A DNA stretch of 64,000 nt. Origin: Eudromia elegans (lineage: Eukaryota > Chordata > Aves > Tinamiformes > Tinamidae). The position numbers and the translations under genes are program-made. Within the stretch, counting starts at the first letter, position 1, and every line of letters begins with the position of its first letter. Positions 692-63,543 of the stretch are shown piece after piece. The notes beneath the pieces are model-generated. The model was not told where the DNA came from, searched no databases, and saw nothing but the letters and a program-made list of their open reading frames with translations. The stretch lies in the NCBI GenBank assembly GCA_003342815.1, contig PTEX01000032.1:2929302-2993301 (forward strand), read 5' to 3'.

Positions 692-1380
692 TCACAGCCT
701 CGCGAGAGGATCAGAGCATGGGTACAAGAGGTTGCCAAATTCAGCTGTCTTGCGGAGGTCTCTGAGATACAGGGCTAAACTCATGTTTTCTTTGGAGCTC
801 AGGCTGCAAATGGAGTCATTGGACCCAGATCCAGCTGACATGCTCTCTGGGAGTCTAAAAGGCCGTTTCATCTATATGCTCCAGCCTGGCTAACTCCCAG
901 GCAATTGCATCTCTCATGCAAGAATAGCTGAACATATCACCCAAACTCTGCTGTCTGCAGACCACAACAGCCCAAACAGACCCTCAGGAACGGGCTAGTC
1001 TCTTTTTGCTCAACTTGGTCACTGTAGGGATCTAACTACTTAACTCTAGTGTATGTACAACACTCCAGGCAATACTGTGGAAACCTCAGACCAGAAGACT
1101 TTTCTACCCCAAGAGAAGAGGGAGAAGCTGCTCTGTAGTACGTGTCTGGAGTAGGCAATTTCACACCAAACATTAGACATGGGCCAAATGAGTGGAGCCA
1201 GCAATCAGTGCCAGCTATAACATGGTGCACAAATTTAAAAAAATACCTGAGTTACATGCACAGACATGCAAGTCAGTTATCCTTACCTTGGACATCATTG
1301 CTTTCAGGGTAGACAGGATAAGCGTTAATGCAGCAAGCCAACAGCACGGCCAAGGTGACTACCATTATCCGGGACAGCAT
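692..1380 (-). CDS. Small secreted peptide precursor, two exons, unrecognised
   Basis: Two exons, 1287-1380 and 692-846, would encode about 82 residues. Exon 1 starts at the ATG at 1380 and gives a classical signal peptide (MLSRIMVVTLAVLLACC, likely cleaved near INA-YP). It ends at a consensus GT donor in phase 1. Exon 2 begins after a CCCAG acceptor in the matching phase, has two cysteines, a run resembling an amphipathic helix (LALYLRDLRKTAEF) and a TGA at 692-694. A TATA-like box lies about 70 bp upstream of the ATG, and an AATAAA lies about 250 bp after the stop, so the transcription unit is only about 1 kb. The ATG, signal peptide and exon-1 donor are seen directly. The choice of exon 2 is inferred from phase and from the single open frame. 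I do not recognise the family; hormone, apolipoprotein-like or antimicrobial roles are all possible. Confidence 0.45.
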
Positions 1381-1448
1381 CTTCTCTCCTTCTCCAAACA
1401 GGTAGCAATCCCCTAGGTGTCTGTAAGCAATGAAGTGTGAAGAGGCTC

Positions 1449-7850: not shown

Positions 7851-8098
7851 GCACGCACCCAGCAGAGCCCTGCCCTCCTCTTACAGCCCTACCTTGTGCC
7901 AGGGCTCCAGATAGGCAACTAGCAGAGCCCCGCTGCCCTCTTACAGCCCTACCTTGTGCCAGGGCTCCAGACATGCACCCAGCAGAGCCCTGCTCCCCTC
8001 TTACAGCAGTACCTCGTGCCAGGGCTCTGTGCACGCACCCAGCAGAGCCCTGCCCTCCTCTTACACTCCCACCTCGTGCCAGGGCTCCTCGGGGACTG
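7851..8098. repeat. 60-bp minisatellite, four units, overlapping the receptor stop codon
   Basis: Four units of exactly 60 bp each contain AGCAGAGCCC, at 7861, 7921, 7981 and 8041. The unit at 8041-8098 contains the end of the cytokine receptor coding sequence and its TAA (8061-8063). Read on the minus strand, the units further downstream carry decayed copies of the same terminal codons and a TAA. The array therefore looks like repeated duplication of the coding tail into the 3' untranslated region. Confidence 0.9.
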
Positions 8099-37321: not shown

Positions 37322-40300
37322 ATGAGCGCGCGCTGCCCGTTGCTGCTGCTGCTGCTGCTGGTGGCGTGCGGAGCCGGCGCGGCCAGAGCCCGGAGCGCCA
37401 TCACAGGCAAGTGGCGCCGCCACGGCCCCTGCCCCGCGGGTGCTGCCCCCGCTGCCGTGCGCGCCGCGGTAAAACGTGTCCCCGCGTGTCGGGAGCGGCA
37501 GCGGGGACCGCGAGGCGCTGGGCTGCGAGCGCTCGGAGCGGCGCGGCTGTCCCTGGCTGCGTGCTGTGAAGCGGAGTGGCCGCGGTTTCCAGGCCTGGGA
37601 CACGGAGGGAATTTGTAGTCAGCGCGCGGCTACTTCCCTGCGTGGCTCCATACGGCTGTGCCACAGCTTGTCCCACAAGTGACCGCGCGCGTCCTGCCCT
37701 GCTCGTAGGCGCGCTGAGCCGGGAGCGGGCTGATACTGCCAGAGTAACACCCCTGTTCTCCTAGTAACATCCGTAGGCGCTCGTAACGGCGTGCGTTTCC
37801 CTCGGCAGCGCAAACGCTTCCGCCCTGCTACTCGGCGAGCCTGAGCCCCACGTCGGGGAGGCTCGTGTCGGCCGTGGGCTGCACGGTGCTGCTGGCGCCG
37901 CCGCCGCTCAACGCCAGCGCCATCGTGTTCTGGGAGTTCAGGAGCGGCCCGCGCGAGGAGGTCATCCTGAGCTACTACGTGGGCAAGCCCGTGAACACCG
38001 CGTCGGCCTACAGAAACCGCACGGCGTTCAACGAGACGGATTTCTCCCTGCAAATGCTGCTGCAGCTGGAGGACAGTGGAGAGTACCGCTTCCGGACGGC
38101 CTCGCAGGAAACCGACTGGCTCCACGTGGAAGTTATTGGTGAGCGGCCCTGGTGGCTTGGGTGGTGCCTCCGTGGCGTTGTTCTTAGGTTAACGCTGCCG
38201 AGTTTTGGAGTAGCCAGCAGTGCGCGCTGTCAGTCACAGGAAGAGGCAGAGGTATCTGTGAGATACTCCGAGGAAATGTAGTTGAAATTTAAACTTTAAG
38301 GCACAGACCTTGAACTGAAGCGAGGTACAGCCCCGGTGAATGGAGCTATGTGTGGGTACCAAGAGCTGTGGTGTTTAGAGGCTTCCTTTGCACCCTGTGG
38401 GCTGGGCAGAGGTTGGGTAAGACTGCAGGGACAGTCAGACATCACCTTTCTCTGTGTCCTCAGTTTTTGCTGTAGTCCAGCGGACTGTGGAGTAGGGAAG
38501 GGAGTCTTGGAAGTGCAGGTGGACTCTGATCTGGATTCGCTTTTGCACAGAATCACACATATCCCCCATGACTGTCTTTCTCTCAAATCTACTGATGTTT
38601 TCCCCTGAACAGAAATCCTCCCTTGGCGAGTCCTCCCCTAGCACGTGAGCTGCCTCATGGGCTCAGAGCGTCCACACCGAGGGGAGATGGTTCTCATGCC
38701 CTGTGCAGAGGAGGTTTCACCTTGCTTGCCAGCCTTGCAGAGCGAGGCGCGCAGAGAGTTGCTGGAGATGTTGCTGGGTCTGAATGCCCTTCAGCTGATT
38801 TGAGCTGATGCAAATGCACAGAATGGAGTTTGTGGAAATGCCTGAGCCTGTGCAGAGCCCCATTGGTCTCCTTGGACTTAGGGACATTCACATCAGTTAA
38901 TTAGAAGCAGCCCTAGGCTTGCAAACTCTATGAAGCAATCTCTTGAGTAGCTGAATAGGAAGGTGCTCTAGTTCTGCCATCGAGGAAGGGAGCAGGTGAA
39001 TGCTGATAGTTGTTCCACGTCTTGCAGAACCACTGCCTGTGCCTGAAATCATGGGCAACAGCTCTGTGAGAGCAGGCGATGACACTAAACTGATCTGCAG
39101 CATCTCAGAAGGCATAGTAGATTCCTACTGGTGGAGGAAGAACGGGGTGCTGCTTCTAGCGAGTGACCATTTCCAGTTTCTTCATAACAACACATTGCAC
39201 ATCACCGAAGTGACAATGAATGACAGCGGCTACTACACCTGCGTGGTCCGCAACAAAGTGAGCGAGAATGAAGCCTCCTTCCTGCTTCATGTTCAGCGTA
39301 AGTGGGTGCTTCCTCCTGCTCTCTGGGAAGGGAAACCCAGGAAACAACCAAGTGACAGGCCCAGGTCTGGGTGACCATGTCAAATCTAAAGCTTTCCCCC
39401 TAAAAAAGAAAGGTCACCTCTTCCGTCAAGAAGAGTTTCACAGCTTTCCCCTCCATAAGTCCACTGTTGTCTCCCCATCCCCAAATGCAACTCTCAGCTC
39501 CCTGAATTAGTGGAAATGAGTGGTGGGAATCATGGGGCTTGGGAGGGCAAATGCCACCCATGTTCTGTGTATTTCTTTGCTCTGAGTGTAGCTGCCCAGT
39601 GGCAAGTTTTTGCTTGAAGGGGGTGGATAGGGAGTAAATTCAGTCTGGCTACAAAGACTAGGAGTTGTCTCTCTTGCAGATCATGCAAACGTGGTCTTGC
39701 CTGTGATGATGGCGTGCGTTATCGTTGGCTCTCTGATAGGTGAGTGTTGGGATTCCCTCTTACCCCTGGCTTTTGGCCTTGTCACTCAAGAAGGGATGAG
39801 TGAAGGTGGAGCAGGGATGTCTTGATGCATGGTGGCCTCCCTGGCTGGCCTCTGCCTCTGTATGGGACATGCTGCAGAAAGATGTAGCTTTTCTAGTAAA
39901 AAACCTTTTGTGTTCTTTGATTTTTCTCTGGAAACAAATAATTTCGTTCCCACAGTGTCACACTCTCTGTTTCTTTCCTTTGCCTCTCTGTTTTGGGTAC
40001 TGAGGGGGAGAAACTCCTGCATGTCCAGAACAGGCCCATTAATATATTTTACCTTCCTTATCTGGGCAAAACTGCCTCTGAGTTCCCATGGACCCTGTCT
40101 GACTGATGAATGTCCCCCATCCCTTCTAGGGTAAAAGCAGATTAGGTCCCTCAATGTGGTCTGCTGCTGATTTCTGCCTGCAGAAGGGAAGCGTGCTTCC
40201 TGACTCAGTGGGCCTGTTTTCCTTCCTTTTTTGGAGCTGGAGAGCACTTTTTTTTCCAGCCTATCTCTAGGACCTAGTAAAGTTTCTCAGATTGCCAACA

Positions 40301-40908
40301 GCAAACTTGAAAAAAAAGTGAAATGCGTTAGTCAGGACCAGAGAAAAGACTCTGCAGGTTTAAAATAGATGTAGGAAGTTCTCTGTAGCTGATTTGTATT
40401 CATTTTTTACTTTTGGATTTTTTTTTTCTATATAATCACCCCAAGCATTGCATAGGTGCTGGGAAAGCTGCCCCGAGTGCTTCTGTTCCCATCCTCCCCC
40501 TGGCCACCCCCCTCACACCTGCTCACCCATGGCCAAAATTGGTGTCTGGCTCCGTTCCCTGGCCTTTCGCAGGGGTAGATACCAGCCCGAGACCGGGGCC
40601 AAGCAGATTTCTGCTGCTGTCCATAGACATGAGCACAGGGTTCCTCAAGACCAAAGGGTCGAATACCAACCAGCTTCCTGCAGGCAGTGACCCTGTGCCA
40701 GGGAGCGCTGACAGTGCCCAGCTCCCTGCTTGAAGTGTCCTGGTTGAGTGTTGCTACCCAAGAAGAAGAGGTGCCTGCTGCTTCTTCCTTTGGGAAGTGG
40801 TGTCTGACAACCGTCTCTAGAGTGTCTGATGGAGCCAATGAGTGGTTTCTTCCCAGGTGTTTTCGTGTGGTGTAGGAGGAGGGGACGCTTTTATCGCTGT
40901 GTCCGTAG
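37322..40908 (+). CDS. Two-Ig-domain, single-span receptor, CD2/HEPACAM-like (3' end uncertain)
   Basis: Exons 37322-37406, 37809-38138, 39028-39297, 39680-39739 and 40857-40908 encode about 265 residues. Exon 1 is a leucine-rich signal peptide (MSARCPLLLLLLLVACG). Exon 2 is a V-like domain with several N-glycosylation sites and no canonical second cysteine (GEYRFR where YxC is expected), as in CD2/SLAM and HEPACAM first domains. Exon 3 is a C2 domain with LICSISEG, WWRKNG and DSGYYTC. Exons 4 and 5 split one transmembrane helix (VVLPVMMACVIVGSLI, then GVFVW) followed by a basic CRRRGRFYR tail. The first coding intron has a GC donor (AG|gcaagt). A possible last exon at 41734 adds only a few residues before TGA at 41744-41746. 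The role is probably cell adhesion or immune-cell recognition, by family. Confidence 0.8.
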
Positions 40909-47365: not shown

Positions 47366-50300
47366 CTAGCAGTGCATTACCAAGGTTGTCGTGCCCAGTG
47401 CATCACGAGTGACGTCCAAGTTTTCTTTCTTGGCCTCTTTTTCTTTCTTGGCTTCTTTTTCTTTCTTATGACCTGCAAATAAAGGAAAAGCCATATTCCC
47501 CTTGGCGCTGAGGTTTCCATAAACGGCCAGGTCTTTTAGTCAGCACCTCAGACTTCTAGAGATATATGAAGAACAGCTGACTGCAGGGAAGTCAGCTTAA
47601 AATCTGGCCTTTTCTTTTCAGCTGAAAGCATCTTTTCCCAATATCCCCTGCAGGGAAGGGGTGGCAGCTAAGAGCAAGCATCTGCCAAGGGGCCGGAGAT
47701 GCCGACTGTGGTCCTGCAATGGGGGAAGGAAACCACTGGGCTACGTACACCATAGGAGGAAGGCCGCCATCGCAGGCAGGACGGCTGCAGCTGCCAGGGT
47801 GAAGCTGAGGGTCAGACTGGTGGACTCGGAGCAGCCTCGTTCTGCGGGACAGAGAGTGAGAACCGCTCAGTGTTTGGCCCTTTGGCCAACATCCCTCTCA
47901 AATACTTACATAACCTGAATGCAACCTGCCTGCCAATCCGCCCCAGGTGTGCCACCACTCCCCATAAGGAAGCTGAGCCTTTACCTTGGAGTTGCTGGAT
48001 GTTTTGGAGCAGAAGGCTGGTGAACAGGAGGAGGACAATCATTGCGGTGGGGGTTGCAGCGTCCAGGGTGACACGGAGCCCTAGGTGAGGAGAAAACTAC
48101 TGACGAGACAAACACATAAGGGATACAGGCCCACGCCTGGAGCAGATGAGCTCAGTGGGCAGGCAAGCAAGGCATGACCAGTGTCTCCAGATGTGCACCT
48201 CCAGCTGGGCACCCGGCCTCTCCCGGCGGAGAAAACTTGTCAAGTTTCCTCTTAGGCTCTTAACAGGCCTTTTCTGACAGATCTTAAACAGCAACTCACA
48301 TTTTTTGGACTTCAATTGGACGAGAGCGTCTGGTCTGCACACCAGTGTGACTGTGAGGAGGGCAGCTGTTATAACCACAGCAAACAGGAAAGGCCAGAGC
48401 AGTACAAAGGCAGCAGATACACCTGTTGGAGGCAGAATTAACTCAGAACTTAAGCCTTTTTCCTGGATGAGGAGCCTGAGACTTTTTTCCAGTGGTCTGA
48501 GGAAAAAAACAGAGAAAGTGATCTTCTTGGCGACCTTGCAAGAAGCCACTACACCTTTAGTGCAGCCTGGAGCTGTGGCTGCCAGCAGCAGCCACTCTTC
48601 CCTCTTTGAGAAGTCCTGGAAGACGGATGGTGGCACTTGAGGAGTGCAAAGAGACCAAGGCAGCACTCAGGGTTTAGAAGAGCAGAGAGGGGAGTCCGGA
48701 GGCCAAGCAGTGAGCTCTGACTTCAGTTTCTCTAAACCAAATACCATTAGATCAAAGATGCTGCCGTGAAAACGAAGATGAGAAACTGAAGCACTAAAAC
48801 CCAAATCAGATGAAGTGAACTCTTCGCAGAGAGATCCCACCTTCTTGCTGCATCCAGATGGAAGAGGAGGCGAGCAGGAGAAGAGAGGAGACAATCACCA
48901 GTACTTGGGCAAACACAGTCATCCATCTCTTCACTTCCTTTCCTAGGGAAAAGTTCCCAAGTGAGAGATCACAACCACACAAGCAGCGGGAATGGCGCAG
49001 ATGCAAAGGGAGGGCAAACACAAAACACATTTTTTGTCTTCATGCAGAATTTAATTCTTATAAGATTAAAAACAAAAACACAGAAGCAAAGAGAAAACCT
49101 GGTCAACTTCAGAGTGTTTTGCTTGATTTCAAAGCAGCCAGGAGAAATCAGCCAGACTTGGGATTGTTCCATTCTGAACAATCCCATCTAGAAATGCAGG
49201 CTTTACACCACATTTGCCCAATTTCTGCCTCCTATAGAAAGCTGATGGGTCTTGGATTTCCTCTGGAGATCCTTTTCATTGGGAAAGGTCCACATGGTAC
49301 ATGTGACATACAGCGGGCATGGTGAAGTCCTCTGAAGAGGCTGTCCTTAAGGGCAGGAACTTACACCACGGCCTTCAAATGCCAGCAGCATAAGGCTCAG
49401 AAACAAATACACAAGGGATAATTTTCCTGCCAGTTAGAGAACTTCCCCTCTGCCCTCCCCATGGCCTCTGCTGTTCTTGAGACTATTCATGGTGGGCTAA
49501 AGAACATGTTAGCAGCTTACAAAAAAAAGACCGTGGGAAGATTCACAGCCGATCATGTCTTTGGGTTTGTTTTTTGTACACCAACATGCATGTTGTTACT
49601 GAAGTGCCTATTTTAACCAGTAATGGTCTTGGGTATATATCTATAACAGCATGTCAAGTTTCTAAGAAGTCTTATCTCTTTGGCGAGCTACAGAAAGCTA
49701 ACAAGGACCACACGCATAGATCACATTTCCTCAAGCTACTGGAGCGTCACAGACTCAAGCAGACAGAAGGGGCTGGTTAGGGCTTCCTGCCCTCATCTGT
49801 CCTGTTCCTCTGTAGAGAGGAAAGGGTTTAGTTTGGGGAACTTGGGTGCTGCTCCAACACCCAGGCCTGACTCTTAACCAAGCTTACCGAGTTGTTTCTC
49901 TAGCTTACAGAGCAGGGCAATGAAGGAGACTGCAGAGCCTACAAAAAACACCAGTGCAACATCAGCCATTCTCTGGGCATGGTGGATGAGAGGCGGCAGA
50001 CCTGCAATGAAGGGAAGAGGGAAATCTCACCACTGAGGACAGCTCAGAAACACAGAAAGGCTACGGGTGTCCCAGGGAACTGCAAAGTGCTAGGAAGCTT
50101 TTAGGGAAGACTCCTAGGTCTTTCCTGCTTGGGAATGCACAGGAGTGACAGTTGCACCTTGTTGGGGCATGGAGACAATGTTCCATCAGCCAAAACTTGC
50201 TGTGCAGACAGGGAGAAGGAAGACCAGGCCTGGTACGGCATGCAAATACACAGAGCAAATCAAGTGCCAAGTGGCAGCACTAACCTGTCACCATCACATT

Positions 50301-52943
50301 CAGTTCTGCTTCCTTCCAGCTTACTTCATTGCTGACATTGCAGGAGTAGGAGCCGCAGTCCGCCCTCTCCCCCTTCTCGATCTGCAGCACGGCACCGTTT
50401 TCATGGACGTGGTAGCACCTCTCTGCGGGGAGAGGATGACCATCCTTCTTCCAGGAGATAGCATCCACTCTTCCTTTAGACACCGTGCAGAACAACTGGA
50501 TGGGTGAACCCACCAGGCCTGAACTGCCCTGGATCTTGGGTTGGGGTACAGTTTCTGGAAGAGAGATCACAGAGTGGCATGAGGACATTGCAGCCACCCC
50601 AGGATGGACACCAGCAGCCCACATGACCCTTGGGGACCAGGCATGGCATTCTGGACCCCAGGATATGGACCCAAAAGGCTGTTCCCACACAGACAGTGGT
50701 AGTGGGAAGAAGGAGGGCCAGAGAACCTACTTTCAAACTGGTCAGACTCCTCGTGGGCCAGACTTTGTGTGCTGGATACCCTTACTGTGAGCAAAAGGAG
50801 GGTTGACGCTCTGCCTCTGCTAATGCCTGTGTACCTGCACCAGCGAGGGCTGCTGCTGGCTACACCTGGACTTCCACTTAACAGCAACAGCGGGCTCCCT
50901 AAGTCCTTCTTCCCTGAGCACAACGTCCTGCATGCAGTACGCTCGTGTAGCAACACTGAGCTCTGTGAAAGGGCAGTTAAAAATGGGCTGAACTCTCTTT
51001 TCTGTTTATTTTTCAAATAAGTTCAGAAAACAGAGAAGGCAAAAATTCACAGAATTGCAGAATGGTTGAGCTTAGAAGGGACCTCTAGAGATCATCTAGT
51101 TCAACACCCCTGCTCCAGCAGAGACACCCAGAGCACATGGCACAGGGTGGCATCCAGGCCAGTTTGGAAGATCTCCAGAGGAGACTCCACAACCTCTCTG
51201 GGCAGCCTTTCCAGGGCTCCATCACACCCATTGGAAAGAAGTTCTTCCTCGCATGGAGATGGAACTGCCTGTGTTTCAACTCGCATGCATTTCCCCTTGT
51301 CTTATCACTGGCCACCACCAAGAAGAGTTTGGCCACATCCTCCCTACATTCTCCCCTCAGTTATTTGTCTTGATCGGGTAACCCCTCAGACTTCTCTAGG
51401 CTAAACAGGCCCAGCTCACTTTATCTTTCCCTATATGATAGATGCTCCACTCCCTTAATCATCTTTGTGGTTCTACACTGGACCCTCTCTAGAAGCAACA
51501 TGTCCCTCTTGTACTGGGGTGCCCAGAACTGCACCCAATACTCCACGTGTGGCCTCACCATTGCTGAGCAGAGGTGCTGCTGGCAACACTCCTGCTGATG
51601 CAGCCAGGATCCCATTGGCCTTCTTGGCCACAAAGGCAATGGGTAATTTGTTGTCCACCAGAACTCCCAAATCTCTCCAGAGAGCTGCTAGTCAGCCCTA
51701 ATCATGTACTGGTACCTGAAGTTATTCCTGCCCAGGTGCAGGACCCGGTGCTTGTCTGTGTAGAACCTCATGAGGTTCCTCTCTGCCCAACTCTCCAACC
51801 TGTCCAGGTCCCTCTGGATGGCAACGCAGCCCTCTGGAGTGTCGACCACTCCACCCAGTTTGGTGTTGTCTCCAGACTTGCTCAGGGCGCACTTTGTACC
51901 CTCATCCAAGTCATTGATGATCAAGTTGAACAGCACCGGGCTCAGTACTGACCCCTGGCCACAGACCTCCAAAAGGAAGAAGGTCTACAGGTACCCAAGG
52001 CCAGTAGATACCCTTAGGAACCGCTGTGCATGTTAGTGGGGAGCCAAAGGAGAGCTTCCCATCAGCCATGGCTGTGTGACAGATGCAGCCTCTTGTGAGA
52101 GTGTCCACAAGCCTAGCTACCCTCCCCATCTCTGATCTCTCCTGCTAGGACTTGCTAGTTTGTAAGGCAGCAGCTGCCCCTGAGGGGGTGGCCATGGCCT
52201 GTGCCAGGTGCTCAGCATCTAAATTCCTCAAATTGTTACTATGACAGTTGTTTTGCTTACTAAATTTGAGCAGAAATAACCTGAGGGGATTTTTATGACT
52301 TACTTCCCTGCTAGCAATGAAATCATTAGATAAAAAGCAGAGCTGAAGATGAGAACCCACACTAGGCAGGATATGTCCCCTGTTTCACTCACTCTGGGCT
52401 GAAGGCACCATGCATCTCCGTCTCTCCAAACGGAAACTCAGCCCACAGCCTGCTTGGGTCTCTCTAAACTCTCCCTAGTAATTCCTAGCACCTCTTTTAG
52501 GGCTGCAGTCCGTGCCCTTCCAGACGGTGATGAAACCACAAAGTCCTGCTCTATTCTGGTTACTATTCCTCCTCTGTGGACTCGTTTGCCATATAGGCTA
52601 TCAAATCTTTGTCCATGTCTCAACATGTTTGACTTACTGATAACTTGCAGGAATGTTGTCCTAGCTTTATCCTGCATCAGATCAACTGTTGCTTTATAGA
52701 CCCCGCTGTCACTCTCTTGTAGGTTTTGCAAGAGAAGGGAGCTGTTCTCTACATGGAAAGTCACTCTGCCTTCATAAGCTGAGTAGATGGTTGGAGACTG
52801 CGAATCGGCATAATACTGCAGGATGAGCACAGGAGTGGTGCCTTTTATGTATTCCCACTCTGTGAGGTTGATGTTCTCGATATCTGGTGCATGCAACAGC
52901 ACTGAGGATCCTTCAGCTACAACTCTTCTTTCTGTGATTTCCA
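47366..52943 (-). CDS. Two-Ig-domain protein with five transmembrane segments (signal exon not placed)
   Basis: Eight exons: 52638-52943 (V-like), 50285-50554 (C2), 49888-50001, 48841-48942, 48300-48422, 47985-48080, 47749-47841 (one membrane helix each) and 47366-47472 (tail). They give about 403 residues without the signal peptide, and every junction is phase 1. The V-like domain ([27 protein letters not shown]) lacks the usual disulfide, as in CD2/SLAM proteins. The C2 domain reads [14 protein letters not shown] and DCGSYSC. Helix cores are [61 protein letters not shown] and [19 protein letters not shown]. The loops after helices 1 and 3 and the tail are basic, placing the Ig domains outside. 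The tail holds KKEKEA repeats and ends VMHC. The architecture equals that of CD47, but the sequence does not resemble it. I know of no described family with this make-up. Confidence 0.82.
51049..51977 (-). mobile_element. CR1 LINE fragment in the intron between V and C2 exons
   Basis: Minus-oriented CR1: the plus strand begins CACAGAATTGCAGAATGG and continues with 'gatcatctagttcaacaccc', then the end of the reverse-transcriptase frame with several frame breaks. It is 5'-truncated. It has the same orientation as the host gene and is clearly older than the copy at 53.9-55.1 kb. Confidence 0.9.
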
Positions 52944-53855
52944 CTGCTGAAGAAGTGCATTGCAAAATCAAGAACAGACCTGCAGAGAGATGTCAGAGAA
53001 GGATGAGATATCAGTGAAGCAAAAACGAGAAGGAAACAAACGGTTTGCACAAGTCCCCACTCTCTTCCTGAAGCATTTTATGTCATGTCTGACTTCTCTC
53101 CTTTCACTCTCCCTCCTTTTTTTTTTTTTCCCCCCTCTGGTAAATGACAGCATTCTTACCACTGTGAAACCAATACTCACATTGAGTTTATATCTCACTA
53201 AGCTCTTAGAGGTGGTTAAGTATTGCAAAACCAGAGGCCACTCTAGCCCCAAAACTCCCTCAATGCATTTTAGTGCATTCAAAAGGTGCATTCAAAAGTG
53301 GACCGAAAATAACGCTCTGGGCTGAGCACAGAGGAAAGAAGAAAAGAGAAACTCCCCCAATGCATTTTAGTGCATTCAGACTGAAAGTAACTCTCTGGCC
53401 TAAGCACAGAAGAAAGGAAGAGAAACTCACGGTGCAGTAACTGGAAGACACGTCATCTCTAAAGGGTAATCAGCAGACATATTATGAGCAGAGAGTAAGG
53501 GAAACAGCAGAGGCCTTAGAGATACCTATGGAAAAGCTATCGTTAAGCATGTAGTAGAGGACCGCTGCCTTGTAGGAGGTGGCAGTAACACCCAGGAACG
53601 GTGACCTGAAGCCCTTGAGACCACTGGGAGGGAGGCAGCTGCCCCAAGGAGCAGTGACGTGTGACACGGGCTCACCACACGACCCCCAGCTCCTCAGTGA
53701 GGACGCGCAGATGGGCTGAGGCCAGCTCAACAGGACGTTACCTCCCAGCAGCATCCACCGTTCCTCCATATGCTCCCACAGGCAGCAGGGCAGCATCTGT
53801 CAGGAAAGGCAGCAGTTGTTTACCACGTAGAACCCGCCACAGAGGGAAAACAAGC

Positions 53856-55146
53856 ATAGAATCATAGAATCATAGAACGGCTAGGGTTGGAAGGGACCTG
53901 TAGAGGTCATCTAGTCCAACCCCCCTGCACACGCAGGGTCCCCTAGAGCATGTGGCACAGGGTGATGTCCAGGCGGCTTTTGAAGATCTCCAGAGAAGGA
54001 GACTCCACCACCTCTCTGGGCAGCCTGTTCCAGGGCTCTGTCACCCTCACCGTTAAGAAATTCTTCCTCAAGTTCCTGTGGAACTTTTGGTGCCTCAATT
54101 TTTGGCCATTTCCCCTAGTTCTATCACTAGCCACCACTGAGAAGAGGCCAGCCCCCTCCTCCTCACTCCCTGTCTTGAGATATTTATATACATTGATCAG
54201 ATCCCCTCTCAGTCTTCTCTTCTCCAGGCTGAAGAGGCCCAGCTCTCTCAGCCTTTCCTCATAGGGCAGATGTTCCAGACCCCTAATCATCTTTGTGGCC
54301 CTGCGCTGGACTCTCTCTAGTAGCTCCACGTCCCTCCTGCACTGGGGAGCCCAGAACTGCACACAGTACTCGAGGTGCGGCCTCACCAGGGCTGAGTAGA
54401 GGGGCAGAATCACCTCCCTCGACCTGCTGGAGACGCTCTGCTTAATGCACCCCAGGATCCCATTGGCCTTCTTGGCCACGAGGGCACACTGCTGCCTCAT
54501 GGTCAACTTGTCGTCCACCATGACGCCCAGGTCCCTCTCTGCGGGGCTGCTCTCCAGGAGGTCGGTCCCCAGCCTGTAGGCATGTCTAGGGTTATTCCTC
54601 CCCAGGTGCAGGACCCTACACTTGCCCTTGTTGAACTTCATGAGGTTACTCGCCGCCCAGCTGTCCAGTCTGTCCAGGTCCCTCTGGATGGCAGCGCAGC
54701 CCTCAGGGCTGTCAGCTATTCCTCCCAGCTTAGTATCATCAGCAAACTTGCTGAGGGAGCACTCCATCCCTTCATCTAGGTCATTAATGAATAAATTGAA
54801 CAGGACCGGACCAAGGACTGACCCCTGGGGGACACCACTATCCACAGGCCTCCAGCTGGATTCGGCACCGCCGATTACTACTCTCTGGGCCCTGTCATTT
54901 AGCCAGTTCCTAATCCACCTCACTGTCCACTCATCTAACCCACTCTTCTGGAGCTTGCCCAGGAGGATGCCGTGAGGGACGGTGTCAAAAGCCTTACTGA
55001 AGTCCAGATAGATCACATCCACCGCTCTGCCCTCATCTATCCATCTAGTCACCCCATCATAGAAGGCTATCAGGTTAGTCAAGCATGATCTCCCCTTGGT
55101 GAACCCATGCTGGCTACTCCTGAGCACCTTCTTCTCCTTCATGTGC
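53856..55146 (-). mobile_element. CR1 LINE, 5'-truncated, with an intact reverse-transcriptase reading frame
   Basis: Minus-oriented CR1 about 1.29 kb long. Its 3' end (plus-strand 53856-53880) carries tandem CATAGAAT units, the typical CR1 tail. The body is a single open frame (see the separate entry), and truncation falls near 55146. It lies 5' of the V exon of the Ig-five-span gene, probably in its first intron or promoter region. Confidence 0.95.
53943..55142 (-). CDS. CR1 reverse transcriptase, C-terminal 399 codons, uninterrupted
   Basis: The protein carries reverse-transcriptase blocks in order: [13 protein letters not shown] (catalytic Asp), [20 protein letters not shown] and FADDTKLGG (catalytic Asp pair). 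The thumb and C-terminal region typical of CR1 follow ([40 protein letters not shown]). The endonuclease domain and the N-terminal part of the reverse transcriptase are missing, so the copy cannot move by itself. The long frame without stops shows that the insertion is comparatively young. Confidence 0.93.
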
Positions 55147-58100
55147 CTGGAAGCATCACCATCCTAGTCTTCAGTTGTGTTATGGGCACGCATGTGATGT
55201 TAAATGTCAGTGACTTCAATCTAACCCACTTTGAGGCTAGCAAAAATTGCAATAACTCAGGCTGGAAAACACTTCCTGAAAAATCCTCTTGCAACTGTAA
55301 ACCCTTCTGTAATGAGTGTGTGGTGCTTCCTTGTACTGCATTTTGCAGGGAGCTCCTTGCCCTTCCCCTCCTACGTCAGCAGGCATTTGGAGTTCATATT
55401 AAAGGGGAAGCAAAAATAAAGAGGCGATTTATTTGCATCTGCTCATGGCCAATGTTTTGTTTAAGCCTAAGTCAGAAGTCGGGGGGGGATGGTGAACATT
55501 TTTAATGGCTTCCATAAAGAGAAATTTCTGTCTTACACCAAGTTCAACAGCAATGCAAACAGGAAGCCCTTTTCAGAAGGGCGGCGGTGGTTTCGTTGCA
55601 AATTTTAACTCAAACTTAGGCTAGCAGCGATAAGAATTGGCCCCATGAAGATAAGCATGCCTACGTCTGTAACATTTCTTCTTTAGTCTGTAGCATCTCC
55701 CCCATGTTTTGCTATCTTTGATATTTATATATTTATTCCTATAGGTATATTTATGGATAATTCTATTGCTATTTCCCTATTGGAAAAGCTCGCTAAGGCA
55801 AAGGCACAAACAGCAACACTCTTGACTGTCAGCACGTTACGAAGGAGCCGCTTTAGGGCTCTCTACTACAGTGGTCCTTGTGTCTCCTGTACTGTTTTGT
55901 GCAGTTTGTAGCAACCCAACATCAGCCCCTGATATGTGCTCTGAATTTGCTGCTTTCGCCTCCCACACTGCGCATAGCTTACAGCTGTCCATGTAAAATA
56001 AAACCATAAAAGGCATTCTGCATGCATAGGGAACATACAGTTCAAGTGGGTAGCAGTCATGAGGAGCTCATCTGTTCCAGCCATCTCACCCTGTATCATC
56101 TTGTGGGCGCCCACAGCAGCTCCCCAGCTGCTTGCTCCCCAGGGCTGATGAGGGTGCCTGGCCTCAGGCAGGGTGCAGCCACTTGGCATCCCTGGAATTG
56201 GATAAATAAAAGAAGGAGGAGCCACCAGTTGTCCTAAAACCCAGACTGACTGGAATGAGAAATCAGTGGGGGCAACCCTGTGTATACTTTCCTCTGGCCT
56301 TCTACACTGCTAATACTGTACTAGGAAGAAATAAAAGGCACGCGAGATTGCAAAGGGGGTGCACACACACACACACACACACGTGGGGGTTCCATCTGGC
56401 ACCGTGAGGTCCTTCAGTAAGGACCTAACAGAGGCATCGCGGGCCGATCCTCTGCCCTGTGTCTGCTGAGCCCTGGTCAACAGAAGAATGGCCGGCAGGG
56501 CGGGTAGCAAACCCAGTGGGGAGAAAAAAGGAGAATGCTACTCACCAGTAACGATCGGCAACCGAAGACAGAAGAAACAAATACGATCAACTCCTCCATG
56601 GGCCGGCCAGGCTCGCCAGCTTCCCGCCTGGAAAGGCGATGGCAGAGGGAAAGCTGTCCCGAAGCAGCTCTGTTCTGGAGCTGGCGGTGGGGGAGCAGCC
56701 CCCTGCTCCGGGTAGCCCCAAGGGCCTCGCCACTGTCGGGGAGAGGCACAGGGAGGAAAGGGGCTCCCACATGCGGGAGAGCTGAGGGAGCCCTTGCAGA
56801 AACGCTCTGCTAGCGGAGGATGGGGGAGGGGAGGAGAGGAAGTATGGTGAGATAAACAGAAACCGGCTGTCAGGGTACGCCTAAAAGCACTCCCAGCAAC
56901 TTGTGGTTTGAGGGGAGAAACCTGAGGGCGCAGGTGAGGACCTCCCTTCTACTGACAAAGCACAAGGGCAGCCGGGGCCGTTGGTGGGAGTAGCAGCCCC
57001 GTGCATTGCACACACCTGTGTCTCATTCCCTGTCCTCGCGGCACCAGCACTGCAGCAGCTCTGCTCCCAGGTGTATCCCATCAAGTGCTGAAACAGTTGT
57101 AATCTTTCGGCTGCTTCATCCTTTCGTTCAGTCTCCAGGTGGAGCTGGCTGTTAGGGCCATGGCTGCCACCTAAGTGCCTGTGCAAGCTTGGTGCTCTTT
57201 TCCAAAGGAGAGACCTCCTTTGTGTTGCTCATGCTGCTCCTCAGGAGGACACTTAAAGATACTCAGGTCCATCTTTGGAGACACTATCAGGGAGCCTCCC
57301 TCTCCCGGCTTCCTCCATCTCAGGCATTTTTGGTTTCTCCAAGGTTGAACTTCGTGTCCCAGCCCCACAAGCTGTGCACCAAGACCCCCTTGCTGGGGAC
57401 CCCTTCTCCCAGCTCCCCCTCGGACCACCTCTGTGCTCGTTTAGCCTCAGGAACAGATGCTCTCTGTTTATTAGCATTCCAAGCCGCCATCCCAAGCAAA
57501 CACTGCCCTTGGTGAAACCTTGCATCTGGCCTGCTCGGCGTGGCTTTGACTCTTTATCGTGCTAGACTAATTTGCTTTTTCTATTTTTTTTTTTAACCTT
57601 AATGGTATAATGAAGACCACACAGACCTACAAAGTCAATAAGTAACTCATGTTCCCCGCTGCTACCAGGCAACTGAGAAGTCAGACAGAAATAAGCATGC
57701 ATGGTCCACACCTCCCAGGTGAGCTTTTTCCATCAGTTACCAATTAGAGCTTCCTGTGGCTTTGTGGTTACATTGCCTTTATCATTATGCCGTTATGGAA
57801 ACATCAGTCAGATTCAAGTGCACTTTCTCTTGGGCTGGTTGTCAGGTTTCCTGCATATAGTACTGTACATGCTCCACTCCCTTAGTATGATTATCTAAAG
57901 GGGAACTGGGAGGACACCTGGAATGTCATAGAAAGGGGGGTATTCTTACTCTTCCCTTTAAGACCGTTGCAATCTGTTGTTCTCCGATTCTGGCAAGAAG
58001 CTGAGGGCGGATGGGGAAACGAAAGCCGCAACGAGCCCTGGGGCCTCTCACAGTTTAACGCTCACAGTTTACAGCTAAAACTCACGCGGTTTCAGCGCAT

Positions 58101-58527
58101 GGCAGTGAAACAACAGGCAGTTCACAGTGTCTACCCCCAACTTCCTGATTTTAGTGCGCGTTTCTCTTCACGACACCATCTTCTCTCCTTTCTGATACCC
58201 AGCGGCGTGCTCGTGCTAAGTTAGGTTTTTGGACAAGGCGCTCCTAAAAAGGACCTTTCCCATGGAAGTTAACAGTTTTTCCCCAAGGATTTGGTAACAC
58301 GGGCTCAGGAGCAGTTGTTTCCCTATGCCGTGGGGAGGCTGAGGAGCGGAGGTGAGACCCCCCCAGAGCCAGCACTGCCCCAGACCACGGGCAGGAGGGC
58401 AGTCCCTGCATACCCATCATCCATATGTTGCCTGACCGAGGTGCAAAGCTGCTGTTGTCTATTTGAAACATGTCAGAGCTGGGGCCCTGGTACCACGTGC
58501 TGCTTGCACGGAGACATTTACATGTAC
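55147..58527. other. Intergenic or 5' region of the Ig-five-span gene, no exon confirmed
   Basis: A CA-dinucleotide microsatellite is at 56362-56382. GC-rich sequence around 56590-56820 with a strong minus-strand donor (TTACTG|gtgagt, 56529) could be a promoter and untranslated exon, but its phase does not fit the V exon as coding sequence. An AATAAA on the minus strand at 57467-57472 could serve the second five-span gene. Confidence 0.3.
56362..56382. repeat. CA-dinucleotide microsatellite
   Basis: About ten tandem CA units. Confidence 0.95.
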
Positions 58528-58588
58528 CTGGTAGATTGAAGAGCATGTGGACACCACTTTGTGTTGTCAGAAGCAGAGGCAGCAGCAT
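58528..58588 (-). other. Candidate signal-peptide exon for the first Ig-five-span gene
   Basis: An ATG opens a hydrophobic start (MLLPLLLTTQSG), and after 61 nt a CAG|gtacat donor follows in phase 1, the phase that the V exon at 52943 needs. The hydrophobic core is short, the implied intron is 5.6 kb long and contains a CR1. An alternative phase-1 exon at 53742-53796 is less hydrophobic. Neither is proven. Confidence 0.2.
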
Positions 58589-59069
58589 AAGGGAGCTGAA
58601 TGTGGGTGGTGCTGCTGACCGCCTACCCCAAGCTCTGAGGCAGGAATGGTCCTTTTGCAGAGGTGGTAGAGGACAAGACTCACTTGGGGTAGCAAATCAG
58701 TGTGACCCTCCTTGATCCACCAGGCCCAGGACAGGCAGCGAGGGCGGCTGCTGGAGGGTAAGGAGGAATGCACACAGGCATAAGGATTAGGTGGTAGAGA
58801 ACTGTCTGTGCACCAGGTAGCACGCAGGCAGGCACAGCCCCCCTTGGCAGCACGGAGGGGTGAGGTGAACATATTTGGTTACCCATGTACGCTTAAAAGA
58901 GGAGACAGCCTCATTATCACAACAAATGAGCAGAAGAGTGTTTCAGCTACTTGCTTGCTTGGAAGTAACATTTCCTTATTTGCACCTTGTTTTAGAGAGA
59001 GAAAAAAAGGCAAAAATGAACTCTCAGTAACAAAACCGAAAAGGAGTAGACTTTTTTAATTGCCATTAT

Positions 59070-59245
59070 CTATCTATCTATATATATGTAATAAAGATCA
59101 CTCTTATTACAGAGGCTGCGCCCAGTGAACCTTGGACAGCGACAGGCTCTGCAAGCAGGAGGATGTTTGCAGTTACTCAGCCCACATGGGAAATACTTCC
59201 AGCCTCTAATGGGTTGAAACAGGATCCTTGATGATTTGCCAGAGC
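59070..59245 (-). other. Candidate last exon (cytoplasmic tail) of the second Ig-five-span gene
   Basis: A strong acceptor (CTTCCTTGCAG) at 59246 opens a frame in the phase required by the fifth membrane exon. It encodes about 58 residues, including HPPACRACRCP, with TAG at 59070-59072 and an ATTAAA 10-15 nt beyond it. The sequence does not resemble the lysine-rich tail of the paralogue, so this is a phase-consistent guess. Confidence 0.25.
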
Positions 59246-60391
59246 CTGCAAGGAAGAGTTGGCGAGGTATGCTGAGCATCGCTGGAGCTGCCCATTGCCG
59301 CCTCTGCGTAGGACCGAACCTGGGCTCATCCTGTTCCTTAAAGGAGAGCACTTTGTCCACTGGCAGCCTCACCGCCCCCTCCAGCTCCATGGACATCTCT
59401 TAGGGCCCCCAAGCCATGTGAATGACCTGCTGAATATGGATAACCCCAGAGAGGTGGAGATCCTGGCAGCGAGTGCCATGGAGCTGTTGCCTGCTGTGTG
59501 GAGGGAAAGGGCAATACGGTGCTGAGCATCTCCTACATTGGGCAGAGGCAAGAAGAGGGGTGAAGTTTCCTCTCTGCGCCCAACTATTTCCTGGCTCCCA
59601 GCCTTATCAAGGCACTGCAAATGGCCTCGTTCCTCTGCGGTTGTCTTTGCCCAAGGCTGTTTTGGGGAAGAAGAGCTGAGGTGGTGTTGGTGAGGCTGGG
59701 GCAGGAGTGGGATCTGCCCTGGGACTCTCCTGTGATGCTCGCACATGGGCTAAGCCTCATCTGCAGCACCACCGAGATGCAGAGAACTTGGAAAAATCAG
59801 CAGGAATTGGGGCTTGAAAGGATCAGCGCTTAACCCTTGAACAAGAGCTTTGTGGAGAGAACGGAGCAGATGCTCAGGCCAGATCTCTGCCAGAACCAAC
59901 TCCTCAGGCTGAGAGTGAAATGAGGAGCTGGAAAGGCAGAGCTGGACCACATCTGTCTTTGGGTCTGTGACTTGAGGCAGATTAGGTCATGTACACCTCT
60001 GTTTTCACTTCAAGGCAATCAAAATTAATGTGGAACAAGATAAGAGATTAACCTGTGTTTGTCCACCCAACTGGAATCATTTTCCTCTTCCCGACAACTC
60101 CTTCCCTGAGTTGTGTGATCTGCAAGACAGGAAGTCTGTTCCCAGGTGACAGAAGAAACGTATGAGAGGCGCCGTGCATACAGTACAGGATGTTACATTG
60201 GAAAAGGTGTTTGAAGCTCATGGGGAAGGGAAAAGGTAACTTGAGAGGCCTTGGGGTCCCGAGATCTTAGCAAAGGCCAGACCAATTAAGGTTTAATAAT
60301 TCACACGACCATTATGTGGGGAGAGGGCTGCTACACTGCTGGACAGCAGGTGCCCAAAGGCTCAGGGAAATTAGGGGGCAGGGGCACTTAC

Positions 60392-63300
60392 AGCGTAGGA
60401 AGATTGCAAGGATGGGGAGGGCAGACACCGCCGCCGTGCTGACCGCCAGGATGGTCACGTCCACAAACTCCGTGCAGCCCTGCTCTGTCATTCAAACAGG
60501 CAAAAGGAGGGCACGACACTCAGCCCGAGCCAGAAAGAGAAAAATAGAAAAATAGAAAGTGAAAGGGTTTCAGTCAAAAATTGATCATAGCTGCTCAAAA
60601 TGTGATGTCTTTTCACAAAAGCTTCAAAAGAGCATGTGACAAATGTGGACTTTTCCCCTGGGGCTCTTATTTCATCTCTCCAGATGCCCCAATCTGGGGG
60701 ATTTTTTGGGGGCAGACTCAAAGAGAAATAGAGAGCATGCACATCATGGCCAAGTCTTCATTTCAATGGGACAGATCTGTGAGGGCTTTCCAGACCTTGG
60801 CAATCTGAGTGCCGGCCCCTAGATCACGCCTTCTCACCGTGGCGATGGTAGATATTCTTCATCAGGAAGCTGGTAGTGAGCACCACCGAGAGCACCCCTC
60901 CAGGAGCAGCGTAGCCCATCGTGCGCTGTACTGGCGAGGGGAAGAGACGACGCAGCGTTACCGGGTGGCCACAGGCACCTGCAGCAGACGCAGGGCTGCC
61001 CTGGCCCACGGGGGACCCGCTTGTGACCTACAGGGGACTTTCACTGCTCCAAAGCTCAGCTCTGCGTTCTGTGAAGTAAAACTCTCAACAAGGCTGCATT
61101 TGGGGCACTTTCTAGCAATTTGACAGAACTTTAGGACAGAATTGCAGCAGAAGGAAAAATAACATTTTCATTAAAATCATGAAAGGCGAGACCTTTGGCA
61201 AAATAACCCTCTCCATCGGCCAGTTTTCCCTCCATCCCTACCCTCCTCAGTGGAGCAGCTCACCTGTTTTGCTTTTGAGATGGATGAGCTTTTCAGGCTG
61301 GAAAGTCACGGTGGCAGAGACCAGGAATGTTACCACAATCACATACACGAGGATGATCTCGGGCAGAATGAAGGCAATAGACGGGCCTGAGAGAAGACAG
61401 CACAAGGGTCAAAACCAGCTCTGCATTTGCCCTATTTACCGCCTTCATGGTTTTGCAGATGTCAATCGCATCCCTTCCCCACCCTCTCCTTTCCGAGTGT
61501 TTCATTCAGACATCCCAAAGCTCTAACTCTTCCAGGAGGCCTTTACCCTATATATATATATATATCCTATATATAATATTTATATATTTAGGGCATGGAT
61601 TTCTCTTGCATGCTGCACCCTGCGTGGGTGGAAGGAGTCGGGGCTGGAGTCCGCAGAGCACCCCAACGCGACCGCCCCCAGCCCACCTCGTACCTTCCTC
61701 GCGCATCCAGAGGATCAAGGCGGCGCTCGCCAGGCCGGAGGAGACGCACACCAGCCCGCACGTGTAGGCGCTGAGCCACCGCCACAGCTCCCCCCCTGCA
61801 CGGGCAGAGCGCTGCTGCAGTGACATCCCGAGACATCCCGAGACATCCCGCGCCATGCAGCCCTCCTCCCCCAGGTGCCACGGGGTACCCGGGACGCTTA
61901 TGGGGACCGACCGAGGCCATGTGGGTCCGAGAGGAGACCTGCCCCTCGGGACGGGAGTGAGGATGCTCAGGACCATCAGACAGTACTCGCCTCCTGCCCA
62001 TGCGCCTTCACTCAGCCTGAATAAATAGGGACTTACTTGGATGGGTTTCCAGCCTGTACGACTCTTAGCCTGTGTCACTATTTCTCCCGTTTCTTCTTGT
62101 ATTTCCTTCAGGGTTGCAATAGTAATAACTCCTGGGAAACTTCCTTTTCTATAAAAATGTCACTCAACTCTGTCTAACAAAAATGTCTAGAAGGTGCTAA
62201 TAGACTAAAATCAGAGTTTTTTTCTGTTAAAAAAAATAGCCCAAGGAAGATTCTCTCTTTATTCCTGTTCAGATCTGATACATGAGAATGAGGCAAGATG
62301 TTGAGACAGCTGGAAGGGGACATTTAACTATCATTTTTTCCCAAAGGAAGATAAGTTTCTCCACCCTCCCTCGCAGCATTTTCAGCATCATCCCTAGCAG
62401 ACTCACTTATCCTTTGCTTTTCTGATTGGCAGACAGGGAAAATTAAGCCCCATCCTGAGACGGCAGTAAAGACCACAGCAACCACTGCAATCCGCAGCGC
62501 ATCTTGTAAGGTTGGAGAGAGACCTGGAAAAAGAGGAGCCAAGAATCAGGCCACCAGCAGGACCGTCATAGTGTGCTCCTTGTCAACGGGACAGACTTGC
62601 TTTATTTGCCATCTGGTGGCCAAATTAGTGCTTGCCGCTGCAGGCTCCGGTTCATGAAAGGCCCGGCCTGGGAGAGGTGGTGCCACATGTACTTTGGTCA
62701 CTATCTCCTGGGATATCTCCTGCCCATCACCCTAGTCATGGTGGCAGTGATAGTCTGGAGAGGCCACAGCACCTTCTGCAGGAGGGAAGAGCCAGGCTCC
62801 CATTGCCATCCTGCCCAGGATGTACCCAGGCAGAAGTGGTGGGAGATGATGAGGGAAATGATGACGGTGGGAGATGGAAGGGGTCATGTGGGGTGCTGGA
62901 GGACAGAAAGGAGACCCCAACCCTGCTTGTTGGCAGTGCTGTGCCAGGCAGCCACTGTGAGGTTGCACTCTCAAGAGTAGACTGGGAATTGCCAGTCATC
63001 CTACCACAGAAGAACAACAGCTCCTGTCAGCTCCCCAGGATTCACCCTTGGACCATAATGTCCTGGGAAGGCTGGCCAAGCCTTTAGGGGGGTAGAGGCA
63101 GAGGGATGGAGTTATAACACCCAGTGAACCATGGGGAGACACGGAGAGCAGGAGTGGTGGGAGTGGATCCCTTTGGCAGCTCATGGAAAGCAGCAGTTTC
63201 CTGATGGCATTTTTTAGCCACACTGGTCGTGCCACAATCCCCAGGTCAGAAGCCAACACCGAGCAGTGATCACCTGCAATGGTCACGTTCAGGGAGGCCT

Positions 63301-63543
63301 CCTGCCAGCTTATCCCATTGCTGGCATTGCAGGAGTAGGAACCGCAGTCCGACTTCTGCACCTTCCTCAGGTACAAAACACTGATGCTGCTGGAGAGATA
63401 GAAACCTCTGTCCGGGGGAAGGGGCTGCCCATCCTTCTTCCAGGCAATGGTGTCCACTTTGCCCTCAGCCACGTCACAGAGCACCTCGATGGTGGACTGT
63501 GCCACTGGATCACTGCTCCGGAGTCGAGGGGGAGAGATGGGCT
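60392..63543 (-). CDS. Second Ig-five-span protein, partial (5' end outside window)
   Basis: Exons 63274-63543 (C2), 62407-62523, 61694-61795, 61264-61386, 60838-60930 and 60392-60484 (one helix each) encode 266 residues. All junctions are phase 1. The C2 domain (AEGKVDTIAWKKDG, DCGSYSC, ISWQEASLNV) is a clear paralogue of the one at 50285-50554. Helix exons pair with those of the first gene in order and length. Shared features are GL.P and EKQ around helix 1, RW and LV.VSS in exon 2, L..LKSK after helix 3, NI after helix 4 and E.GC before helix 5. Basic residues follow helices 1 and 3, giving the same topology. A V-like exon is expected beyond 64000. The last helix exon ends at a good GTAAGT donor, so a tail exon must follow; one candidate is at 59070-59245. 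Confidence 0.82.
61549..61590. repeat. TA-dinucleotide microsatellite
   Basis: TA repeats interrupted by CC, in the intron between the second and third helix exons of the second Ig-five-span gene. Confidence 0.9.

Follow-up and report, generated by a model that had tools for sequence, protein, structure and literature searches.

Proteins of the CD2/SLAM family, 2B4/CD244 among them, are held in the membrane by a single span or a lipid anchor, as are CEACAM1, CEACAM5 and CEACAM6, and HEPACAM and HEPACAM2 have one span. To our knowledge, prominins carry no Ig domains. In the relevant passages of PMC8410850, prominins are described as having five spans and CD47 is singled out as the immune system's sole five-span receptor, with an SWF linker and a GLG motif in helix III as its hallmarks; passages of the same article and of PMC3564380 describe the disulfide that joins the Ig domain of CD47 to ECL2 and the role of this bond. 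PMC13278318 states that no more than one CEACAM gene, CEACAM1, is functional in birds.

A group of genes in the tinamou Eudromia elegans appears to join features of these systems, with a CD2-type V-C2 head followed by five membrane helices. Two of them lie on the minus strand of the window, the whole stretch of 64,000 nucleotides of contig PTEX01000032.1 that was analyzed, and all positions below are in window coordinates, including those beyond its end. The helix exons were delimited by splice borders and hydrophobicity, and the Ig exons by splice borders and the Pfam models named.

Gene 1
53742..53769, minus strand: probable signal-peptide exon (MEERWMLLG-G), with an ATG, a phase-1 end and a weak GT donor
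52638..52979, minus strand: remainder of the signal peptide and V-type Ig domain without cysteines (V-set, Receptor_2B4, splice borders)
50285..50554, minus strand: C2-type Ig domain, 270 nt, with an extra cysteine in DCGSYSC (I-set/Ig_3)
49888..50001, minus strand: helix 1 exon, 114 nt
48841..48942, minus strand: helix 2 exon, 102 nt
48300..48422, minus strand: helix 3 exon, 123 nt
47985..48080, minus strand: helix 4 exon, 96 nt
47749..47841, minus strand: helix 5 exon, 93 nt, with a weak donor site and, in outer loop 2 close to the exon start, the conserved GC(S/T)
47366..47472, minus strand: putative cytoplasmic tail and stop, short, lysine-rich and without tyrosine

Gene 2
66358-66412: the one plausible candidate for a first exon, beyond the window
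64384-64728, minus strand: V exon, just beyond the window end
63274..63543, minus strand: C2-type Ig domain, 270 nt, with an extra cysteine in DCGSYSC (Ig_3/I-set)
62407..62523, minus strand: helix 1 exon, 117 nt
61694..61795, minus strand: helix 2 exon, 102 nt
61264..61386, minus strand: helix 3 exon, 123 nt
60838..60930, minus strand: helix 4 exon, 93 nt
60392..60484, minus strand: helix 5 exon, 93 nt, with GC(S/T) conserved near its start

The original prediction, made from the sequence of the window, had described both genes as a C2 exon followed by five exons of one helix each, and this anatomy was recovered to the nucleotide: the C2 exons measure 270 nt in both, and the helix exons 114/117, 102/102, 123/123, 96/93 and 93/93 nt (gene 1/gene 2). 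The V, C2 and five helix exons of both genes are all bordered by an AG acceptor and a GT donor and are all of phase 1-1. The signal-peptide exon of gene 1, which was picked out by eye from the printed sequence and is in frame with the V exon, was missed by the automated first-exon scan because its donor is weak; the same scan found no plausible first exon for gene 3 (described below). The tail of gene 1 is probably joined to helix 5, since the phase fits. No convincing tail exon emerged from the exon scan for genes 2 and 3, so these copies may still have tails with signalling motifs.

The two genes had also been taken for a tandem pair. This is too narrow, as the family comprises at least three copies, which sit among six related Ig genes clustered here, including the following.

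89877-93388, plus strand: gene 3, identical to genes 1 and 2 in exon order and close to them in exon lengths
37808..39739, plus strand: single-span relative, with V (37.8-38.1 kb), C2 (39028-39297) and TM (39680-39739) exons

Gene 3 is located 26 kb past the window, on the strand opposite to genes 1 and 2, and its exon borders and phases conform to theirs. In a blind exon scan of 213.7 kb, genes 2 and 3 marked the only places where five helix exons lie within 3.6 kb; at gene 1 the scan detected four. In the single-span relative, exon 39680-39739 was the sole hydrophobic candidate found. Genome-wide, all relatives of the V exons fell within the cluster except for one weak match (E 0.2), and neither the C2 nor the V searches gave any sign of a further copy elsewhere. 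When the membrane part of gene 1 and that of gene 3 were each run as a single protein against the genome, both recovered their own exons, and gene 3 additionally matched helix 4 of gene 1 (E 0.6) and one place on C152 (E 0.43); both searches missed gene 2, so that equally distant copies could exist elsewhere in the genome. The genome searches covered this one bird, and the sauropsid distribution first suggested is a conjecture beyond it. A tree of V domains leaves a one-clade origin of the three five-span genes undecided and places the single-span neighbor on a long branch. Another neighbor, with a V domain only, is followed by an exon with the ITSM-like motifs TVYATV and TLYASV. The ITSM exon is out of phase with the TM exon of this neighbor, which ends in phase 1, since every acceptor available to the ITSM exon leaves it with 0 or 1 leading base. 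One exon or more must therefore be missing between them, and the ITSM exon belongs to this gene only putatively.

Several lines of evidence bear on the coherence of the five-span genes. Were the helix exons a separate multi-span gene, or pseudogenes, their junction with C2 would be only conceptual; a few exons do have weak splice sites, for instance the helix 5 donor of gene 1, which is consistent with such a reading. It is contradicted, however, by the agreement of phases at every junction from V to helix 5 in all three genes, with no stop in any of these exons, by C2-to-helix-1 introns so short (283 nt in gene 1, 750 nt in gene 2 and 160 nt in gene 3) that little space is left for a separate gene start, and by a GLxP motif that spans the C2/helix-1 junction and is conserved in all three. 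Second codon positions also differ less than third positions in all nine combinations of gene pair and part that were compared. A separate multi-pass gene, which the original prediction had named as an outcome that would contradict it, was rejected on the phases, the 160-nt intron and the junction residues, and we consider this reading as a whole very improbable.

Residues had been said to be conserved at matching places in the helix exons, and this was borne out quantitatively. Across the five helix exons, genes 1 and 2 share 38% identity over 169 aligned codons; of the 120 possible orders, the matched one scores best, and its sum lies 19 SD above that of residue-shuffled exons (reached by 0 of 300 shuffles). 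A membrane profile built from genes 1 and 2 matched gene 3 at 98.95% (E 1e-17, 154 columns), with 29 columns invariant across the three membrane parts. All three genes display five hydrophobic peaks, with inner loops that are net positive and outer loops that are net negative; the conceptual proteins thus obey the positive-inside rule and are predicted to have an external N-terminus and five spans, the number first proposed. The claim of one protein combining CD2/HEPACAM-type Ig domains with five spans would then apply to three paralogues rather than two.

By sequence, the Ig part of genes 1–3 belongs with the CD2/SLAM/HEPACAM/CEACAM group. The mature V domains have no cysteine in any of the three genes, i.e., they lack the canonical pair, as in the CD2/SLAM family, and a C2 domain follows as it does there. 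The CD2-family model Receptor_2B4 scored above its cut-off in gene 1 (22.4 bits) and gene 3 (29.3 bits), and is not listed for gene 2. The best single solved-structure match of the gene 1 Ig part is titin (4e-27), so the assignment relies on the cysteine-free V domain together with the other searches; titin aside, CEACAM1/5/6 gave the best matches (E 3e-19 to 7e-13) among solved structures that extend over its V and C2 domains together. The closest C2 exon outside the cluster in a one-way genome search (40% over 68 residues, E 5.6e-6) lies in a gene that we take to be HEPACAM2. An AlphaFold model of the V exon reached a pLDDT of 36 and thus lends no fold support. Within C2, the motif DCG is found in all three five-span genes, as opposed to DSG in the single-span neighbor. 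Genes 1 and 3 contain one further C2 cysteine, an alternative pairing partner that would speak against the tether considered below. Despite these Ig similarities, five helix exons in each of the three genes set them apart from the single span or anchor of CD2/SLAM proteins, as do five predicted spans from CEACAMs, which have a single span with an ITIM/ITSM tail or an anchor, and the gene 1 tail differs from those of SLAM receptors in having no ITSM.

The membrane part was not assigned to any described family. No Pfam family exceeded its curated cut-off for the membrane parts of genes 1–3, no prominin model was among their matches, and when these parts were combined into one profile, it retrieved nothing from solved structures up to E 10. 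Matches of the gene 1 membrane part to YbjO_DH-like (0.0038) and WLS-like_TM (0.014), and of the whole gene 1 protein to WLS-like_TM (1.5e-4), fall short of the curated cut-offs and do not recur among the listed matches of gene 2 or gene 3; they were discarded as hydrophobic noise.

The closest architectural counterpart is CD47, with which the predicted proteins share an external Ig part, five spans, an external N-terminus, one helix per phase-1-1 exon, and a cysteine in the outer loop just before helix 5, where all three genes encode GC(S/T). CD47 has a single CD47-type V domain, whereas V and C2 are found here. In sequence, genes 1–3 have no detectable kinship to the CD47 membrane part, in line with the original view of a separate family. 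The CD47 membrane model PF04549 matched none of the three genes while recognizing the CD47 of the same bird (control, 4e-39), and none of its five places genome-wide up to E 10 is on contig PTEX01000032.1. Similarly, the CD47-type V model PF08204 is absent from the Pfam matches of genes 1–3, and its six places genome-wide are all on other contigs. An hhalign comparison of the family membrane profile with CD47 gave 0.4% (E 0.15), against 98.95% for the within-family control, and the SWF linker and helix III GLG, both present in the CD47 of this bird, are missing from all three genes.

CD47 homology by sequence was accordingly rejected, the Pfam, hhalign and exon-by-exon tests all being negative where the within-family control works, yet we retained it as a rival because the exon layout is shared: the base may be a highly diverged CD47 relative, either because phase-1 recombination brought CD2-type Ig exons onto a duplicate of a CD47-like module or because CD47 and these genes share an ancestor. 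The CD47 of the same bird has five helix exons of 90/102/93/96/93 nt, all of phase 1-1 (chosen among listed candidates, a choice that the PF04549 match of 4e-39 bears out). Lengths equal to these occur at three of five positions in genes 1 and 3 (reached by 4 of 120 length orders) and at two of five in gene 2 (28 of 120). The summed exon score against CD47 lies 2.3 SD above shuffles for gene 1 (7 of 300 reach it) and 1.1 SD for gene 2 (49 of 300), but the matched order is not the best, 44 and 60 of 120 orders being equally good. With span number, sidedness and the cysteine before helix 5 on one side and the negative sequence tests on the other, we regard kinship to CD47 as unlikely.

Alternatively, the base may have arisen independently, through repeated phase-1 duplication of a membrane exon in a single-span CD2-type ancestor or from another membrane gene, in which case the likeness to CD47 would be convergence. 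The lack of both CD47 sequence kinship and a Pfam family for the membrane part is consistent with this origin, as is the presence of single-span relatives in the same cluster. Off-diagonal helix scores between genes 1 and 2 are nevertheless only 15-30, versus 44-64 on the diagonal, so the five helices bear no trace of copying from each other, and we regard an independent origin as less likely than not.

The family could already be annotated without a name in public bird genomes, or be described in the chicken SLAM (2013) or Xenopus CD2/SLAM (2011) papers. This seems rather unlikely: no named family with the same layout was found among the titles and abstract openings of the open-access matches listed, and the passage of PMC8410850 (2021) that names CD47 the sole 5-TM receptor of the immune system argues against it. 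Papers on chB6 and a CEACAM1 preprint were considered as prior descriptions and set aside, as the passages concerned do not describe the family.

Taken as a whole, the data are best explained by ligands or adhesion molecules that present a cysteine-free V domain and a C2 domain on a five-helix base and work in a CD47-like manner, a reading to which we assign a probability of about 0.56. Each of the three paralogues would encode one surface protein, comprising a signal peptide, the cysteine-free V, C2 and five helices, with the N-terminus outside. The only tail found, that of gene 1, is short and lysine-rich and has no signalling tyrosine. Ligand function or adhesion would be the main role of these proteins, with the V face possibly binding a receptor on an opposing cell. 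One candidate is a single-span V receptor encoded in this cluster, adjacency and the custom of the CD2 family being the grounds for suggesting this pairing. The C2 domain would serve as a stalk and the five-helix bundle as a rigid base. The extra C2 cysteine, found in all three genes and not in the single-span neighbor, might form a bond with the conserved outer-loop cysteine before helix 5, so that the Ig part would be held upright, by analogy with the Ig-to-ECL2 disulfide of CD47. This tether is a guess, and its partner would be C2 in genes 1–3 instead of the V domain as in CD47. The proteins would thus work like CD47 while standing, by the tests made, outside its family.

A broader proposal, which we consider improbable as a whole, is that these genes represent a second five-span lineage of vertebrate immune surface proteins that arrived at the same design as CD47, with a CD2-type V-C2 head, a base unrelated to CD47 and a cysteine tether, acting in birds as a self-marker or as counter-receptor for the adjacent receptors. 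If three bird genes combine the body plan of CD47 with a CD2-type head and a base that looks unrelated, CD47 would no longer be unique. Such a family would allow the contribution of five spans to an Ig ligand to be judged by natural comparison, and would suggest that receptors and their ligands may be clustered in birds.

Three genes in the 213.7 kb examined (the window, C236:2929302-2993301, and fetched flanks, with positions below 0 or above 64,000 lying in the flanks) encode, as far as the sequence can tell, a real and structurally consistent family that combines the body plan of CD47 with a CD2-type head. In genes 1 and 2, the V and C2 immunoglobulin (Ig) exons and the five exons holding one hydrophobic helix each (h1-h5) have AG/GT borders and are phase 1-1, two leading bases finishing a codon and one trailing base opening the next. 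Checking these borders returned exactly the C2 and helix exon lengths of the original prediction. Gene 1 additionally has a V exon, a short tail exon, and a plausible signal-peptide exon recognised by eye. Gene 3, in which every listed exon is again phase 1-1, came to light when V and helix criteria were applied to the flank. The two window genes do form a tandem pair as proposed, but the pair is not the whole set, since the third copy lies beyond the window on the opposite strand.

Exons of the five-span Ig genes (window coordinates)
47366-53769, - strand: gene 1; C2 and h1-h5 of 270, 114, 102, 123, 96, and 93 nt
60392-63543, - strand: gene 2, h5 to C2; C2 and h1-h5 of 270, 117, 102, 123, 93, and 93 nt
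64384-64728, - strand: gene 2 V, just past the window end
89877-90221, + strand: gene 3 V
90741-91013, + strand: gene 3 C2, 273 nt
91174-91287, + strand: gene 3 h1, 114 nt
91503-91604, + strand: gene 3 h2, 102 nt
92288-92404, + strand: gene 3 h3, 117 nt
92752-92847, + strand: gene 3 h4, 96 nt
93296-93388, + strand: gene 3 h5, 93 nt

A similarity-free scan of all 213.7 kb, which asked for a hydrophobic helix, passable splice sites, phase 1-1, and a length of 90-126 nt, yielded 43 candidate clusters (+ strand 14, - strand 29). Five candidates within 3.6 kb on one strand were found in three spans: one at gene 3 and two, overlapping each other, around gene 2, the count in one of these two including a further candidate at 58.5 kb. 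Gene 1 scored four because its h5 falls under the limits. Among the best eight spans per strand, the other three- and four-candidate spans begin inside genes 1-3, except for an unrelated three-candidate span near -5.6 kb.

The full conceptual proteins of the other two genes align to gene 1 at 42% and 36% identity, and the five-helix parts alone at 39% and 29%, with 29 invariant columns common to the three genes. Gene 3 was matched by a profile of genes 1 and 2 at a probability of 98.95% (E = 1e-17); the 154 aligned columns cover helices 1-4 and the beginning of the h5 exon. All three genes keep GLxP across the C2/h1 splice, the C2/h1 introns measure 283, 750, and 160 nt (genes 1, 2, and 3), and third codon positions differ more than second in 9 of 9 comparisons (gene pairs by parts). 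From this paralogue similarity, junction, intron, and codon-position pattern, we conclude for the conceptual proteins that one transcript is probably intended to join Ig and helix exons. Five hydrophobic peaks, with a mean hydropathy of 1.3-3.3 over 19 residues, are seen in each protein. Net charge is positive in loops 1 and 3 and negative in loops 2 and 4 of all three, which fits the predicted topology with the N-terminus outside. The gene 1 tail is lysine-rich and without tyrosine. Two repeat copies within the gene 1 span (51040-51960 and 53860-55170) presumably represent CR1 LINE 3' ends.

CD47 of the same bird (contig C302, C302:2288557-2298557, - strand) has a V exon and five one-helix exons, all phase 1-1, as in the five-span genes. 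Its helix exons, picked from several candidates (90, 102, 93, 96, and 93 nt), equal those of genes 1 and 3 in length at h2, h4, and h5 (4 of 120 orders as good) and those of gene 2 at h2 and h5 (28 of 120). PF04549 matched none of the three five-span membrane parts, against 4e-39 for the bird CD47 control; hhalign of CD47 with the five-helix part gave 0.4% (E = 0.15); and in exon-by-exon comparison 44 and 60 of the 120 orders did as well as the matched one or better. Relative to shuffled exons, gene 1 scored 2.3 SD above the mean against CD47 (7 of 300 shuffles reach its score) and gene 2 1.1 SD (49 of 300). The SWF linker and GLG motif, conserved features of CD47 according to PMC8410850, are present in bird CD47 and missing from all three five-span genes. 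Because the exon layout is shared but the sequence tests are negative and SWF and GLG are missing, we regard the five-span proteins as probably working like CD47, not as demonstrated CD47. Their proposed separateness from CD47 holds for detectable sequence kinship; the exon layout is shared and the lengths partly agree.

For CD47, PMC8410850 and PMC3564380 describe a disulfide between the second outer loop and the Ig domain that is important in SIRP-alpha binding. All three five-span genes have a GC(S/T) cysteine near the start of the h5 exon and a C2 cysteine within DCGSYSC, whereas DSG stands in place of DCG in the single-span neighbour (37-40 kb). The gene 2 C2 holds exactly three cysteines, the usual pair and the DCG one. 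We hypothesise that the DCG cysteine would bond to the GC(S/T) loop cysteine in a CD47-like tether, a pairing kept tentative because a fourth cysteine is present in the C2 domains of genes 1 and 3.

The V domains of all three genes are devoid of cysteines. Pfam assigned the Ig parts to V-set and I-set/Ig_3; genes 1 and 3 exceed the Receptor_2B4 cut-off, as does the single-span neighbour (22.9), and this model is absent from gene 2's Pfam list. Across the genome (944 Mb in 723 contigs), the gene 2 V exon matched genes 1 and 3 (3.5e-22, 2.6e-15), three further members of the same cluster (2.9e-5, 2.3e-4, 1.3e-3), and, outside the cluster, a single weak hit (0.2). Gene 3 C2 matched genes 1 and 2 (2e-16, 7e-18), followed among the 70 matches listed by a gene we take to be HEPACAM2-like (5.6e-6); most others inspected resemble titin-type Ig domains. 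Against solved structures, gene 1 matched titin best (4e-27), the next covering both V and C2 being CEACAM5, 1, and 6. The suggestion that the family is undescribed agrees with the open-access matches listed, none of which, by title or start of abstract, concerned an Ig plus five-span family besides CD47; subscription literature on the chicken SLAM family (2013) or Xenopus CD2/SLAM (2011) may nevertheless contain an earlier description.

Neighbouring genes were called from exon scans and Pfam, and the names CLIC, class II cytokine receptor, FAAH-type amidase, and claudin-like are presumptive. The Ig cluster comes next after the claudin-like candidate.

Neighbouring genes (window coordinates)
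Near -5 to -3 kb: CLIC gene (Pfam 3e-21)
8-13 kb, exons 8073-12795, - strand: class II cytokine receptor (Pfam Tissue_fac 1.8e-8)
20-24 kb, - strand: amidase of FAAH type (Pfam 1.3e-40)
Near 34 kb, - strand: possibly claudin-like gene (Pfam 0.0015, under its cut-off)
37322-40909, + strand: V-C2 relative (the single-span neighbour), for which a single hydrophobic exon candidate was found
70595-73622, - strand: V plus TM gene, TM exon 72366-72482, together with a downstream exon carrying ITSM-like motifs
About 79.8-80.2 kb, - strand: near-twin V exon, own TM exon near 79.3 kb

The cytokine receptor has an apparent long acidic cytoplasmic exon, and an exon at 1287-1420 (- strand), with no Pfam match, resembles a signal-peptide exon (MLSRIMVVTLAVLLACCINAYPVYPESNDVQ), which may belong to a small secreted peptide. 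The V-C2 relative has two cysteines in V and lacks the extra DCG cysteine in C2. No C2 exon was seen in the two V plus TM genes (about 73 and 80 kb, - strand). An exon 2.4 kb behind the V exon of the ~73-kb gene encodes TVYATV and TLYASV, both fitting the ITSM pattern as quoted in PMC13278318. The TM exon and this exon do not join in phase, which implies at least one intervening exon and makes the assignment to the same gene tentative. CD2-family receptors and their ligands are often encoded by adjacent genes; on this basis, we propose that the five-span proteins would be ligands or adhesion molecules, one candidate partner being a single-span neighbour in the cluster.
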